Below, in pieces: positions 13,871 through 56,869 of a DNA stretch of 64,000 nucleotides (position 1 is the stretch's first letter; each line of letters starts with the position of its first letter). Under the pieces are notes generated by a model. It was not told the origin of the DNA and did no database searches. It saw only the letters and a program-made list of their open reading frames with translations. The position numbers and the translations under genes were made by a program. The DNA is from Armatimonas rosea (GTDB taxonomy: Bacteria > Armatimonadota > Armatimonadia > Armatimonadales > Armatimonadaceae). The DNA lies in the NCBI RefSeq assembly GCF_014202505.1, contig NZ_JACHGW010000004.1, forward strand, positions 372,001 to 436,000, read 5' to 3'.

Positions 13871-13955
13871 CCTCCCCCCGTGCTTTTGCCTCCCCCCGTG
13901 CTTTTGCCTCCCCCCGCCGCTTAGACGGCGACCCCCTCCGGCTTCGCGAAGGGGG
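13871..13955 (-). repeat. R1 repeat, left inverted end of DUF559 element
   Basis: Bases 13889-13955 are the exact reverse complement of 14455-14521 (67 bp). Read on the minus strand the unit has CCCCCTTCGCGAAG, a GGGGG arm, hairpin CGCCG-TCTAAG-CGGCG, then GGGGGGAGG tails. The outer 18-mer CCTCCCCCCGTGCTTTTG is present twice in tandem (13871-13888, 13889-13906). Confidence 0.9.
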
Positions 13956-14011
13956 TGTAGTACTGCGCTAGCCTATCACCATAAACCCGCTTCGCAACGG
14001 GGTACGGGCTA

Positions 14012-14389
14012 TCACGGGGCGAGGGGAGGTAATTCGGCAATTTTGCGCCGTACTGCCTGCCGTATCTGATGGGGCGTGGCTTTGAGCACCTCTTCGTTGC
14101 GCAGGCGAATCACCCGTAGACCCCTTGCCTCGAATAACGACTGCGTTCTTTCTGTGTCGTAGCGCTGTGCCTCAGGGCAGTCATGGCTCGTGCCATCAAT
14201 TTCCACCACTAACTTCAGGGTGGGACAGTAGAAATCCGCGATGTACTGATCCAGTATCTCCTGCCGCCGAAAACGTAAGCCGTCGCACTGGTCGCGCCGT
14301 AGCGCCTCCCAAACACGCTTCTCTGCATCTGTCATCTCACACCGTAGGATGCGGGCACGATTTCGCATCACCAAGTAGCTTTCATTCAT
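14012..14389 (-). CDS. DUF559 endonuclease-domain protein
   Basis: The 125-residue protein is a full-length DUF559 protein: ARILRCEMTDAEKRVWEAL, GLRFRRQ, then YIADFYCPTLKLVVEIDGTSH, with Asp52, Glu63 and Asp65 in the positions of the PD-(D/E)xK/Vsr-like active site, and a C-terminal VIRLRNEEVL. The fold is shared with very-short-patch repair endonucleases; the cellular role of DUF559 proteins is not settled. I chose ATG 14389; a GTG at 14410 would add seven residues. It is the only gene between two perfect inverted copies of repeat R1, which suggests that nuclease and repeat are functionally tied. Confidence 0.88.
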   Translation of the reverse strand: MNESYLVMRNRARILRCEMTDAEKRVWEALRRDQCDGLRFRRQEILDQYIADFYCPTLKLVVEIDGTSHDCPEAQRYDTERTQSLFEARGLRVIRLRNEEVLKATPHQIRQAVRRKIAELPPLAP

Positions 14390-14454
14390 ACCCTGAAAAC
14401 GGGTGAGCACCCCCGATTCTTATAAAAAGTCGAGATTTTCTTAAAAATATTCCC

Positions 14455-14521
14455 CCCCCTTCGCGAAGCCGGAGGGGGTCGCCGTCTAAGCGGCGGGGGG
14501 AGGCAAAAGCACGGGGGGAGG
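14455..14521 (+). repeat. R1 repeat, right inverted end of DUF559 element
   Basis: This copy is a perfect reverse complement of 13889-13955. It carries the short form of hairpin 1 (CTTCGCGAAG inside CCCCC/GGGGG arms), hairpin 2 CGCCG-TCTAAG-CGGCG at 14470-14485, and two GGGGGGAGG tails. Confidence 0.9.
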
Positions 14522-14543
14522 CTAAATGCGAGAGTAGCAAAAT

Positions 14544-52306: not shown

Positions 52307-54253
52307 ATGAGCATTCTGACAGTCTCTAACCTCGCCAAGAGCTTTGGGGCGGACGTTCTTTTTTCGGACATTACGTTTAGCATCTCCGCGGGCCAGAAGC
52401 TGGGGCTCATCGGGCGCAACGGTGGGGGCAAGACGACCCTGCTCAAGATCCTCCTGGGGCAGGAGCTGGCCGATGCCAGCAGCAACGCACCGCCCAAGAT
52501 CAACCTCGCCAATGGCCGGCGCATGGGCTACCTGCGCCAAGAGGCACCGGTCCATCCCGAGCGCACGATCGCCGAGGAGATCGAGGTCGCGCTGGAGCCC
52601 TACCGCGCAGTTCAGGCACGTATCTCCGAGGCAGAGCACGCCATGAGCGCCGCCACCGACGACGAGACCCTCAGCAAGGCGCTGGAAGACTACACCGAGG
52701 CGCTCGATGAGTTCGAGTCCCGCGGCGGCTGGGAGATCGAGTCCACCAAAGACGCCACCCTCATGCGGCTGGGCTTTGGGCCGGAGACCCTTGAAAAACA
52801 AGTCGGCTCCTGCTCCGGCGGCGAGCAGACCCGCCTCGCACTGGCAAAGCTCGTGCTCACGCGCCCCGACCTGCTGATCCTCGACGAGCCCACCAACCAC
52901 CTGGATATCAACGCGGTCGAGTGGCTGGAGGGCTTCCTGAAAGAGTACACAGGTGCCGTGATCCTCGTCAGCCACGATAGATATTTCTTGGATGCCGTGG
53001 TGGACAGTATCGCCGAGCTGGAGTTCCAGAAGCTGACGATCTACAAGGGCAACTACTCCCACTTCCGGCGGCAGAAAGAGGAGCGGCTCCAGCGCCAGCA
53101 GGACCTCTACGACCAGCAGCAAAAAGAGATCGCCCGTCTGAATGACCTGATTAAGCGCAACATGGGCGCCAATGCCACCATGAGCAATATCCGCCACAAG
53201 ACCCAAGGCAGGATCGAGCGCATGGAGAAAGTCGATGCCGTGCGCCACGACACGACACGGGTCAAGGCCAGAATCGACGATAAAAACGCGGGGCGGATCG
53301 GGCGCGAGGTGCTGAATCTCTCGGGAGTCGCCAAGGCCTATGGCGAGCGCACCCTCTTCTCGGACCTGAACGCGCTGGTCGAGCGCGGCGACCGGGTCGG
53401 CTTTGTCGGGCCCAACGGCGCAGGGAAGACCACCCTGGTAAAGCTGCTTCTCGGGGAGGAAGAGCCGACCGCGGGAAGCATTCAGTGGGGACACAATGTC
53501 CGCATGGCCTACTTCTCCCAGCACGCCACCGATGCCCTGGATGTCGAGAAGACCGTCCTCGATACCCTGCGCGACGAGGCCCCGGCCTGGAATGAGACCC
53601 AGCTTCGGAGCTATTTAGCGCGGTTTCTGTTCACCGGCGACGATGTCTATAAAAAAGTGGTGATGCTCTCCGGCGGCGAGAAGAACAAGCTGGCGCTGGC
53701 GTGCATGCTGCTAGAGCCGTGTAACCTGCTAATCCTCGACGAGCCCACGAACCACCTGGATATCGAGTCCTGCGAGACCCTCGGCCAGATGCTCACCGAC
53801 TACAACGGGACACTCTTCTTGGTCAGCCACGACCGCTACCTGCTCAATGCGGTCACCAATAAAACCCTCGGCCTCACCGGCAAGGGCAGCGCCGAGCTGA
53901 TCGAGGGTAACTACGCTGCTTGGCGTGAGCTACAAAACCCCACCCCAGCACCCACCGCCAAAAACGCCCCCCTTCGCGAAGCCGGAGGGGGTGGCGAGCC
54001 CCAGCGAGCCGGGGGAGGCAAAAATGCGGCGGGAGGAAATAACAAAGCCCGCGCCAAGACCCAAGCAGCCCTCGAAAAGGCCGAAGCCGAGATCGCGAGT
54101 CTGGAAGCACGGCTCGCAGAGCTAGAAGCCAGCCTTGCATCGGGCAAGGGCGATATGGTCGCGCTCGCCACCGAGCACACCCAGACCCAGGAGCAGCTCA
54201 CCGCCACCCTCACGGAGTGGGAGCGCTTAAGTGAGGAACTGGTAGATAGGTAG
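52307..54253 (+). CDS. ABC-F family ATPase with repeat-derived linker segment
   Basis: The 648-residue soluble protein has two ABC domains in tandem: Walker A GRNGGGKTT (36-44) with signature SGGEQTRLALAKL, and Walker A GPNGAGKTT (about 366-374) with SGGEKNKLALACML, both with LDEPTNHLD. ABC-F proteins act on ribosomes, in translation or antibiotic protection, and do not transport. The C-terminal coiled coil starts near residue 580 (AALEKAEAEIASLEARLAEL). Residues about 554-576 (PLREAGGGGEPQRAGGG) are encoded by an R1 repeat inserted in frame. Its end overlaps the convergent DUF6785-like gene by 27 bases. Confidence 0.93.
   Translation: MSILTVSNLAKSFGADVLFSDITFSISAGQKLGLIGRNGGGKTTLLKILLGQELADASSNAPPKINLANGRRMGYLRQEAPVHPERTIAEEIEVALEPYRAVQARISEAEHAMSAATDDETLSKALEDYTEALDEFESRGGWEIESTKDATLMRLGFGPETLEKQVGSCSGGEQTRLALAKLVLTRPDLLILDEPTNHLDINAVEWLEGFLKEYTGAVILVSHDRYFLDAVVDSIAELEFQKLTIYKGNYSHFRRQKEERLQRQQDLYDQQQKEIARLNDLIKRNMGANATMSNIRHKTQGRIERMEKVDAVRHDTTRVKARIDDKNAGRIGREVLNLSGVAKAYGERTLFSDLNALVERGDRVGFVGPNGAGKTTLVKLLLGEEEPTAGSIQWGHNVRMAYFSQHATDALDVEKTVLDTLRDEAPAWNETQLRSYLARFLFTGDDVYKKVVMLSGGEKNKLALACMLLEPCNLLILDEPTNHLDIESCETLGQMLTDYNGTLFLVSHDRYLLNAVTNKTLGLTGKGSAELIEGNYAAWRELQNPTPAPTAKNAPLREAGGGGEPQRAGGGKNAAGGNNKARAKTQAALEKAEAEIASLEARLAELEASLASGKGDMVALATEHTQTQEQLTATLTEWERLSEELVDR
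53968..54036 (+). repeat. R1 repeat inside ABC-F coding sequence
   Basis: CCCCCTTCGCGAAGCCGGAG matches the first 20 bases of the element end at 14455. Hairpin 2 is GGC-GA-GC-CCCA-GC-GA-GCC and the tail is GGGGGAGGCAAAAATGC then GGCGGGAGG. The 69 bases (23 codons) keep the reading frame. Confidence 0.85.
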
Positions 54254-56026
54254 GTTGAAGACCCGCCCAAAGAGCGTCCAGAAGGTCTGAATCCCGATAT
54301 CGCCCAGGGTCAGCCCGACAAAGAACCCGAGGGCGGTCTTGTGCGCGACACTCCCGCCGTAGCGCAGGGCGAGGGTCTTGGCGAGCCAGGCAAAGAGAGT
54401 CGGGAGGAAGAACGCGTTCATGGTCAGGGTGGTACCGAGGATATAGCCGACCGGATGCAGCGGAAAGCCCATAAAGCGCACCCGCAGAAACCCCAGCAAG
54501 GCCACGAAGAGCGCCCCAAAGGCCATCCCACCGAGCCCCGCGCGATCAAAGCCCGGTGCCCGGCTGGCGAGCTGGTGCATCTCCTTCATCCCAATCTGGG
54601 TCTTGGTGACCACATAGACATTGCTCTTTGCCGTGGCCGCCCCCAGCTCGTAGAAGTGCGGCAGGGAGAAGAGCCAGCCAAAGGCCAGCGCGGTGAGCGA
54701 GAACACCCCGACCGCACGGAGCAAGAGCCGCGGCGAGACCCCCTGCGCATCCGTGAGCTTGAGCGCCTCCATGAGATACGGCAGAGACTGGCCCCGGATG
54801 TCGATGTGCACCAAGTCGCTCAATCCTAGGGCGGCAAGGCTCCGTGGCTCCAGCCGCGGTGCCCCGGAGAGCTCGAAGGCGACACGGCCCGGTGTCCAGG
54901 TAAGCGGCGCGAAGGTCCAGACGCCCCCCGCCTCCGCACGTGCGCGTGCCCCCGCTAGCACGTAGCCTGCGTAGGCGACCACGGCAAGCAGGGCCATTGT
55001 CGGCGGAGTTCCCATGCCCCAGAGCAGGGCCGCGGCCAGCACCACGCAGACCAGGGCACTGGTCGGTAAGAGCCTGCGCCCCGCCCAGAACGTCATCCCC
55101 GCCGACATCAGCCACGCCCCCGCACTCTGCTCCAGCGGGTAGGGAAAGCGCGCCGCCCCCTGCCCCGCTGCCTCCAGCCCAAAGAAGGTGCCCAGAGGGT
55201 AGGCGAGCCGGATCAGCACCCAGAAGACAAGGCACGAGAGGCTCACACTCGACGGCATGAGATACGCGAGCCCCACCGCCATGGGATAGAAACTCACGCC
55301 AAAGCTGGGGATAGAGCTCCACGGCGGCGACGGAAAGAGCATGTCGCGGTAGTCCGCCACCTTGAGCTGGATCGCGGGGACAGTCGGGTACCACTCGTGG
55401 AGAACCAAGAGGCTCTGGAGCACCACCGGAACACTCACCCCGAGCCAGAACAGCGGCTGCCGCAGGAGCGCGAACTGGCTCTGGCTTAGCTCGAGGGGAA
55501 GGGCAGCCACCGGGAACGTGAGCTTCTCTTCCCGAATCCAGTGCCGGTGCAGCGCCGCCGCCAGCCCCAGCCAGAGGCCGTGTAGCAGGAGCAAGTAGGT
55601 ACTCCAGAACGCAATTGGCACCGCCCAGGCGGACCAAGGAACCGCGCTTCGCCCCTTGAAGAAGCCCTCAATCGCCGCCGGATCGTGAAGCACGGGAAGC
55701 GACGCCAGCACGGGGAGGTAGCTCGCCCACTGGGGCATGGTCGGGGCGGAGTAGGCGAGATAGCCCATGCCAGGGAGCAAGAAGCGCATCCCACCGAAGC
55801 CGACAATGGGCAGGGTTGCGGTGAGCACAGCGTAGCCAAAGAGCCACTCGCGCGTGTCGAGGGCCAGCAAGCGCCGCAGTGCCCCCCCCAGGAGTAGATA
55901 CAGCACGGTCGGCAGCATCAGCGAGTAGCAGAGCAGGTAGACACTCCGGGCGATCTCGCTATCGGCAGTCCACCAGAGCAGCCCCCCCTGCACCATGAGA
56001 ATCATCGCCCAGACACGGGCTCGCAT
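54227..56026 (-). CDS. Large polytopic membrane protein (DUF6785-like)
   Basis: The 599-residue protein has 12 or more hydrophobic segments. The wording around residues 150-180 (HGLWLGLAAALHRHWIREEK LTFPVAALPLEL) matches a group of polytopic proteins, named DUF6785/DUF6784 as far as I recall, that is common in Planctomycetota and Armatimonadota. Function is unknown; transport is possible. It overlaps the end of the ABC-F gene on the other strand by 27 bases and touches the cysteine hydrolase gene upstream (one-base overlap at 56026), so these two are one operon. Confidence 0.72.
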   Translation of the reverse strand: MRARVWAMILMVQGGLLWWTADSEIARSVYLLCYSLMLPTVLYLLLGGALRRLLALDTREWLFGYAVLTATLPIVGFGGMRFLLPGMGYLAYSAPTMPQWASYLPVLASLPVLHDPAAIEGFFKGRSAVPWSAWAVPIAFWSTYLLLLHGLWLGLAAALHRHWIREEKLTFPVAALPLELSQSQFALLRQPLFWLGVSVPVVLQSLLVLHEWYPTVPAIQLKVADYRDMLFPSPPWSSIPSFGVSFYPMAVGLAYLMPSSVSLSCLVFWVLIRLAYPLGTFFGLEAAGQGAARFPYPLEQSAGAWLMSAGMTFWAGRRLLPTSALVCVVLAAALLWGMGTPPTMALLAVVAYAGYVLAGARARAEAGGVWTFAPLTWTPGRVAFELSGAPRLEPRSLAALGLSDLVHIDIRGQSLPYLMEALKLTDAQGVSPRLLLRAVGVFSLTALAFGWLFSLPHFYELGAATAKSNVYVVTKTQIGMKEMHQLASRAPGFDRAGLGGMAFGALFVALLGFLRVRFMGFPLHPVGYILGTTLTMNAFFLPTLFAWLAKTLALRYGGSVAHKTALGFFVGLTLGDIGIQTFWTLFGRVFNLPIYQFLT

Positions 56027-56817
56027 CAGGCAAGCCCTTCCAAGAAATCCGCCAGGTCAAAGACAAACCCAAACGCCAGCGCCACCCGCCAGAGTGCCAG
56101 CGCCTTCGCGGTCTCGGTCCGCGCCGACTCCGCGTTCTCTACCGCCGTAGTCGCCTCACGGATCGTCGAGCACAGATACCCCAAGCGGCTCAGCTCGACC
56201 ATTCCCCCCGGAGATAGCAGCAGGCACCAGTTGAGCGCAAAGCCCACATAGACCAAGTGCGAGACCCCCGCCGCGCTCGCCAGGGCCGCCAGCTGCTCGC
56301 TATCTTCCGCGATCCCCTCCGCGCCTTGGGGACGAGCCTGCTCAGGAAAGTCCAGCCGTGCAAAGCCCGCCCGCACATCCGCCTCGTTGTGCCGCCCCAC
56401 AAAGACATTCTCGGAGCGGAAGCGCAGGAGCTCCTCTATTCCCCCTTCGCGAAGCCGGAGGGGGTCGCGCTCTAAGGCGCGGGGGGAGGTAGAGTGCCTA
56501 GCCTGGTATCCGGGCAGATGTTGGTAGTAATTGCCACCACCCACGACATGGAAGACGGGCCAGCCCGCCGCGCGGACCGCGGCCAGGAGCGGGGGAAAGA
56601 CCTCGCGCAGGATGTGGTCGGCGCGGGGGATGTACTCCACCGCGCGGTGCCAGCCAGGGAACAGCTCGCGTGTCCCCGTGTCCCAGGCGTGCATGACCAC
56701 CAGCGCAGTCTCCTCCTTTCGGATCGGAAGGTCCGCTTGCTTCCAGCCGCCGTAGCCCTCCGCAGGGATCTCCCGCGCAAAGTCCGCATCAAACTGCTGG
56801 TAGTACCACGCTCGCAT
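56026..56817 (-). CDS. Isochorismatase-like cysteine hydrolase with repeat-encoded insert
   Basis: The 263-residue protein resembles the isochorismatase/nicotinamidase fold: Asp46 in VVMHAWD, FHVVGGG, and Cys198 in VGFALNWCLL. The usual cis-peptide and Lys features are less clear, so the reaction (probably amide or ester hydrolysis) is open. Residues about 110-126 (TSPRALERDPLRLREGG) are encoded by an R1 repeat and have no counterpart in the fold. I chose ATG 56817; the frame from 56868 overlaps the divergent redoxin promoter. Confidence 0.78.
   Translation of the reverse strand: MRAWYYQQFDADFAREIPAEGYGGWKQADLPIRKEETALVVMHAWDTGTRELFPGWHRAVEYIPRADHILREVFPPLLAAVRAAGWPVFHVVGGGNYYQHLPGYQARHSTSPRALERDPLRLREGGIEELLRFRSENVFVGRHNEADVRAGFARLDFPEQARPQGAEGIAEDSEQLAALASAAGVSHLVYVGFALNWCLLLSPGGMVELSRLGYLCSTIREATTAVENAESARTETAKALALWRVALAFGFVFDLADFLEGLA
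56441..56489 (+). repeat. R1 repeat inside cysteine hydrolase gene
   Basis: CCCCCTTCGCGAAGCCGGAG is shared exactly with the copies at 14455 and 53968. Hairpin 2 is CGCGC-TCTAAG-GCGCG, against CGCCG-TCTAAG-CGGCG at 14470: two paired changes with the same loop. The tail is GGGGGGAGG. The insert keeps the minus-strand reading frame open. Confidence 0.88.
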
Positions 56818-56869
56818 GCCGCCATTGTAACAAGAAAGCGGGGCAAAGATCGGGTAAACTGTGGACACT

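Follow-up and report, generated by a model that had tools for sequence, protein, structure and literature searches.

A DUF559 nuclease gene lies between exact inverted copies of a dispersed repeat

The window, a stretch of 64,000 nucleotides of Armatimonas rosea (C4:372001-436000; genome surveyed: 6.33 Mb, 19 contigs), contains a compact block in which one gene is enclosed by two inverted arms of a repeat, R1, whose further copies in the window lie inside other genes. The features are as follows.

13871-13955, + strand: left arm (R1 repeat), head outward, from sequence reading and repeat comparison
Starts at 13871, 13889 and 13907: tandem heads CCTCCCCCCG of the left arm
Around 13917-13927: small hairpin of the left arm
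13931-13955: C-rich hairpin ACCCCCTCCGGCTTCGCGAAGGGGG of the left arm
14012-14410, - strand: DUF559 (PF04480) nuclease gene, from profile match and conserved residues
14390-14454, - strand: A/T-rich leader upstream of the DUF559 gene, with a CACCCGTT..AGGG element, from comparison by eye
14455-14524, - strand: right arm (R1 repeat, inverted), head outward
13879-14539: block absent from the congener G001, boundaries good to ~12 bp, from congener comparison
53968-54023 (pieces 53968-53992 and 54011-54023), - strand: dispersed R1 copy in an ABC-F-like ATPase ORF (52307-54253)
56441-56489, - strand: dispersed R1 copy in a hydrolase-like ORF (56026-56868, - strand)

Direct comparison bore out the exact inverted 67-bp copies of the original prediction: the reverse complement of 14455-14521 equals 13889-13955 letter for letter, and the arms agree exactly over 68 bp and at 99% identity over 72 nt, both carrying tandem copies of the head CCTCCCCCCG. 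The sole gene between them is, again as predicted, a complete DUF559 ORF, encoding 132 aa from GTG at 14410 or 125 aa from ATG at 14389. Its product matches PF04480 with 105 bits, against a curated cut-off of 20.6, and has the conserved E, D and ExDG..H residues in the alignment columns; no Pfam domain besides DUF559 was found in it, neither Y1_Tnp nor a transposase domain. We saw no methylase among the immediate neighbours of the gene. By eye, the CACCCGTT..AGGG leader element is common in outline to the genome's other DUF559 genes, and the leaders of the DUF559 genes L001-L005 of this genome have TTTATCAGA and CACCCGTTATAGGGGC-like elements in common, perhaps a promoter or regulatory site.

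R1 is dispersed, with at least 46 matches in the genome, several of them close inverted pairs with heads outward, 16-60 bp apart and with no gene between. Its predicted recurrence in the window, also within genes, holds at 53968-54023 and 56441-56489, where both ORFs stay open across the repeat; the R1 stretches there encode PLREAGGGG and ERDPLRLREGG. No Rfam family matched the R1-type repeat.

The protein resembles homing and Vsr-type nucleases

DUF559 is a very common protein family whose function is unsettled. An AlphaFold2 model of the window protein (pLDDT 87.5) has as its nearest fold the gonococcal DUF559 protein NGO0050; the EDxHD homing endonuclease I-Bth0305I comes next, and the likeness to Vsr is weaker. 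TM-scores by query length are 0.58 for 3r3p_B (I-Bth0305I) and 0.56 for 1vsr (Vsr); profile similarity to I-Bth0305I is weak (E 1.3e-4). Although model comparison thus suggests a similar fold, the window protein differs from these enzymes in being single-domain and not intron-encoded. We know of no strand-joining activity in a lone nuclease of the Vsr/EDxHD fold, and would not expect the DUF559 enzyme itself to join strands. The E. coli family member YcjD has been assigned to the PD-(D/E)XK superfamily (PMC1189080).

The arms share a plan that resembles the BoxC/PIT/TM motif

Across DUF559 loci, the arms have a C-rich head outside and a C-rich hairpin beside the gene, with heads of the CCTNACCCC type found in many genomes. 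Among 162 distinct head-hairpin copies, relatedness kept in, AA heads go with TT stems and CA heads with TCT stems, nearly without exception, and the arms fold better than shuffled sequences (mean z -2.2). Judging from sequence, these repeats resemble the BoxC/PIT motif, for which an intrastrand triplex has been reported in E. coli (PMC4666352): both are three-block sequences with a C-rich hairpin and a mirror-like C-rich head, occur as close inverted pairs and are widely distributed, and by eye the window arms likewise combine a C-rich stem-loop with a mirror-like third block. BoxC/TM repeats, known from hundreds of bacterial genomes, mark unstable regions, and neither an origin nor a mobility gene is known for them (PMC4666352). 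That study reports no association with mobility genes, whereas here the repeats are linked to a family of genes. Among the hits of full-text searches in an open-access library, we found no title or abstract that links the DUF559 family to BoxC-type repeats.

Inverted flanks accompany DUF559 genes far above controls

We applied one scoring rule for flanking inverted repeats to DUF559 loci of the phylum and to controls. Such flanks were found at 50 of 93 loci, compared with 1 in 394 randomly placed intervals on the contigs concerned (repeats as strong as those of the window locus occurring in ~0.25% of these) and 1.3% of mismatched flank pairs; ~46% of the phylum loci had none by the same test. 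In a second set, mostly from Cyanobacteria, Chloroflexota and other phyla and including some Armatimonadota loci that overlap the first, the counts were 30/74 for DUF559 and 0/551 for random intervals. C-rich hairpins stood on both sides of the gene at 32/93 phylum loci, 47/72 loci of the second set and 4/12 loci of a plasmid set, as against 1/1019 random intervals. Because the phylum loci were the highest-scoring entries of a ranked list, and some loci of each set are related to one another, these figures are strong contrasts and not exact probabilities; read in this way, the sequences make the association of DUF559 with inverted repeats well supported.

The repeats could instead be unstable sites that collect small mobile genes, DUF559 being a Vsr-like repair nuclease that persists there. 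BoxC/TM sites are indeed variable regions in E. coli (PMC4666352), and the Caulobacter DUF559-domain protein VsrA (CCNA_02930), for which there are in vivo data, causes DNA-damage signalling in cells without a methylase and is proposed to be a Vsr-like mismatch repair nuclease, a reading made without discussion of repeat context in the portions of that paper considered here (PMC12907096). PIN toxin genes, however, which are also small and patchy, had inverted flanks at 0/29 loci and two-sided hairpins at 0/23 (size-matched ORFs: 4/290 with inverted flanks), and a hot spot alone predicts neither inverted, head-out arms on both sides nor covariation of arms with protein; we regard this explanation as improbable.

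Some loci depart from the usual arrangement. Two DUF559 genes of one genome (L085 and L115, G179) have a complete repeat pair upstream only, and at L121 and L221 a short ORF ~210-250 bp from the DUF559 gene lies within a 49-scoring inverted repeat, the adjoining DUF559 gene's own flanks scoring low.

RAYT-type genes carry other repeats

A gene between two inverted palindromic repeats is also the arrangement of RAYT/REP systems, of which E. coli yafM with its BIMEs is an example (PMC2817692). The likeness extends to the single nuclease-type gene, the outward-facing heads and the dispersed, gene-less inverted pairs, as in REPINs. The enzymes differ, DUF559 being PD-(D/E)XK/Vsr-like and RAYT a Y1 HUH transposase, as do the heads, which are C-rich here (CCTNACCCC type generally, CCTCCCCCCG in the window block) and of GTAG type in RAYT/REP; moreover, the DUF559-repeat pairing was found here in many phyla.

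This genome has seven Y1_Tnp matches, at loci separate from DUF559, and the repeats might in principle be moved by these RAYT-type transposases or by IS elements, with DUF559 irrelevant. Inverted flanks were present at 14 of the 20 RAYT-type loci with enough flank, but these repeats differ from the DUF559 type: a C-rich hairpin stood on both sides at 0/20, and R1 was found within 1.5 kb of none of the six own-genome Y1 loci tested. Nor did we see IS-type terminal repeats around the window block. A RAYT or IS element as the mover of R1-type repeats is therefore unsupported here, and we consider it highly improbable. Like IS-derived MITEs, the gene-less pairs would be small inverted-repeat elements that are not autonomous but have an autonomous relative; the window site differs in having no DDE transposase and no target duplication.

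An IS-linked case was found in G183, a motif-rich genome (358 pattern matches) in which no DUF559 was detected. There (L285, L292, L296) a BoxC-type pair has been spread as part of a miniature element of IS type, which is bounded by terminal repeats GAGGGTGTTCGA and by what look like target duplications of 9-10 bp; this speaks for IS movement of that pair. We set this genome aside as a counterexample to the DUF559 association, since the three copies examined sit in the miniature element and it says little either way.

Paralogous DUF559 genes have inverted flanks of their own

The genome has five DUF559 matches, one of them a remnant. R1 flanks were found at none of the other four loci, so that R1 is rejected as the common flank of every DUF559 gene. 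Inverted repeats other than R1, of similar architecture, nevertheless enclose three of these four: L001 (31 bp, perfect), L003 (112 bp at 95%) and the remnant L005 (35 bp at 89%), L004 having none. The L003 and L001 arms are also dispersed, with ~20-25 genome matches each, whereas at the same threshold the L005 arm matched its own locus only. In G001, inverted flanks likewise stand at three of four DUF559 genes. Because arms differ between paralogs of the same genome, any specificity for cognate repeats has to be either broad or quick to evolve.

The original prediction had named two signs of a chance association, namely other DUF559 genes bare of R1 and R1 equally frequent in relatives that lack DUF559, and the outcome is mixed. 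No other DUF559 gene here is flanked by R1, and R1 copies stay frequent in G001 although no R1-flanked DUF559 occurs there; on the other side, G001 does have other DUF559 genes, and the paralogs have inverted repeats of their own.

Paralogs whose arms differ while gene and leader are alike, together with abundant R1 in G001, favour a different view, in which a selfish homing DUF559 gene cuts gene-less repeat pairs and is copied between their arms by recombination, the repeats spreading by other means. The closest characterised fold of the modelled protein, that of a homing endonuclease, also points this way. Such a homing gene entering existing repeat pairs is the main alternative to an element that moves with its own arms, and on the evidence of the next section we think it rather unlikely.

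Gene and arms are gained or lost together

In G001, the sequences flanking the window block are contiguous and ~660 bp, comprising both arms and the gene, are absent. The presence/absence comparison that the original prediction proposed thus finds arms and gene missing as one block, and sequence comparison makes it well supported that the block is a unit, gained here or lost in G001. The homing view is at odds with an empty site that is also without arms. Neither the G001 empty site nor, by eye, the Anabaena sites showed a target-site duplication. A lone R1 copy also differs between the two genomes: comparison of L011 with L360 revealed an in-frame copy in a menaquinone-pathway-like gene, with a net gain of ~39 bp, that is absent in G001.

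In six genomes of the Anabaena/Dolichospermum group, DUF559 genes whose proteins are 84-96% identical have similar flanking repeats, each flanking unit being a whole repeat pair, and most of the sites they occupy are unrelated. The copies cease to be homologous at the outer heads ACCTAACC and GGGGGAGAGGTC, except that L168, L172 and L188 share some outer-flank sequence; in L183, part of the left repeat is lost. That near-identical copies of gene and arms end at these heads, and that most of their sites are unrelated, indicates that the arms travel with the gene, which argues against homing into existing pairs. So does the finding that, at non-homologous sites, the more alike two proteins are, the more alike are their arms.

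According to annotated records, inverted-flank DUF559 genes also interrupt operons: in Sphingomonas one lies between sufB and sufC (L279), and in two Deinococcus species they occupy different junctions of one hpa operon (L274, L281).

Repeats and DUF559 co-occur across genomes, including E. coli

Of 291 phylum genomes, 66 contained a strict CCTNACCCC-type pattern, which misses this genome's own repeats; the reversed control gave almost no matches. Phylum genomes with at least three pattern matches are enriched for DUF559 (40/165 vs 10/126, p=2.6e-4, relatedness ignored), with exceptions both ways. Among these are motif-rich genomes in which no DUF559 was detected (G158, G165, G182, G185), a point in favour of the homing view.

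The DUF559 gene ycjD of E. coli (L342 2178-2531) has sapF and fabI as its neighbours. The 3' end of ycjD extends into a BoxC-like repeat, and a canonical copy precedes fabI. The C-terminal codons of some DUF559 genes seem to come from the flanking repeat, as in RRSPSP of YcjD and PPRPSPVEGEG of L150. In a sample of E. coli records spaced evenly along the ranking, each of the 37 genomes with ycjD had 13-32 matching places, whilst 12 of 22 ycjD-negative records had 2-4; ycjD-negative strains such as O157 still had 11-20. Since ycjD distribution tracks phylogroup (PMC12817139), this difference amounts to one or a few contrasts, confounded by phylogroup. The sapF-fabI interval was rejected as an empty site for ycjD because it is not clean, other E. 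coli lineages having an efflux operon there (PMC12817139).

A probable RAYT/REPIN-like element with a different nuclease

By comparison, the data show an association with DUF559 that is specific relative to RAYT-type genes and an architecture that the loci have in common; the block is present or absent as a whole, and near-identical gene and arms recur at mostly unrelated sites. The window block is probably one copy of a widespread mobile element, made up of a single-domain DUF559 nuclease between inverted BoxC/TM-type repeats, and is best read as RAYT/REPIN-like, its likely mobiliser being a nuclease of the Vsr/homing type. For the RAYT-like role that the original prediction gave to DUF559, as a nuclease that moves or copies hairpin repeats, the inverted flanks at three of four paralogs, the cross-phylum association above controls and the gain or loss of the whole block speak in favour; the part that did not stand is R1 as a repeat shared by the paralogs. 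That DUF559 itself catalyses the movement or copying of repeats is what we infer.

In the RAYT/REPIN-like reading, the nuclease would recognise its own type of repeat when this is extruded as a hairpin or triplex, and would nick or cut at the repeat or at a target resembling the head. Recombination or replication by the host would then copy the DNA bounded by the repeats into the break. Such cutting would also drive conversion between repeat copies and in this way explain why the arms are identical. The gene-less close inverted pairs would be to the element what REPINs are to RAYTs, its small relatives that are not autonomous. We propose more tentatively, as a possibility that we do not yet favour outright, that DUF559 nucleases are cognate mobilisers of BoxC/PIT/TM triplex repeats across bacteria, spreading by nicking and without transposase strand transfer.

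The DUF559-repeat pairing gives a testable role both to a common nuclease family and to a widespread repeat, for which E. coli K-12, with ycjD and roughly 20 BoxC copies, is a ready laboratory system. Found in distant bacteria including E. coli, the same pairing makes DUF559 a candidate spreader of a very common repeat family.
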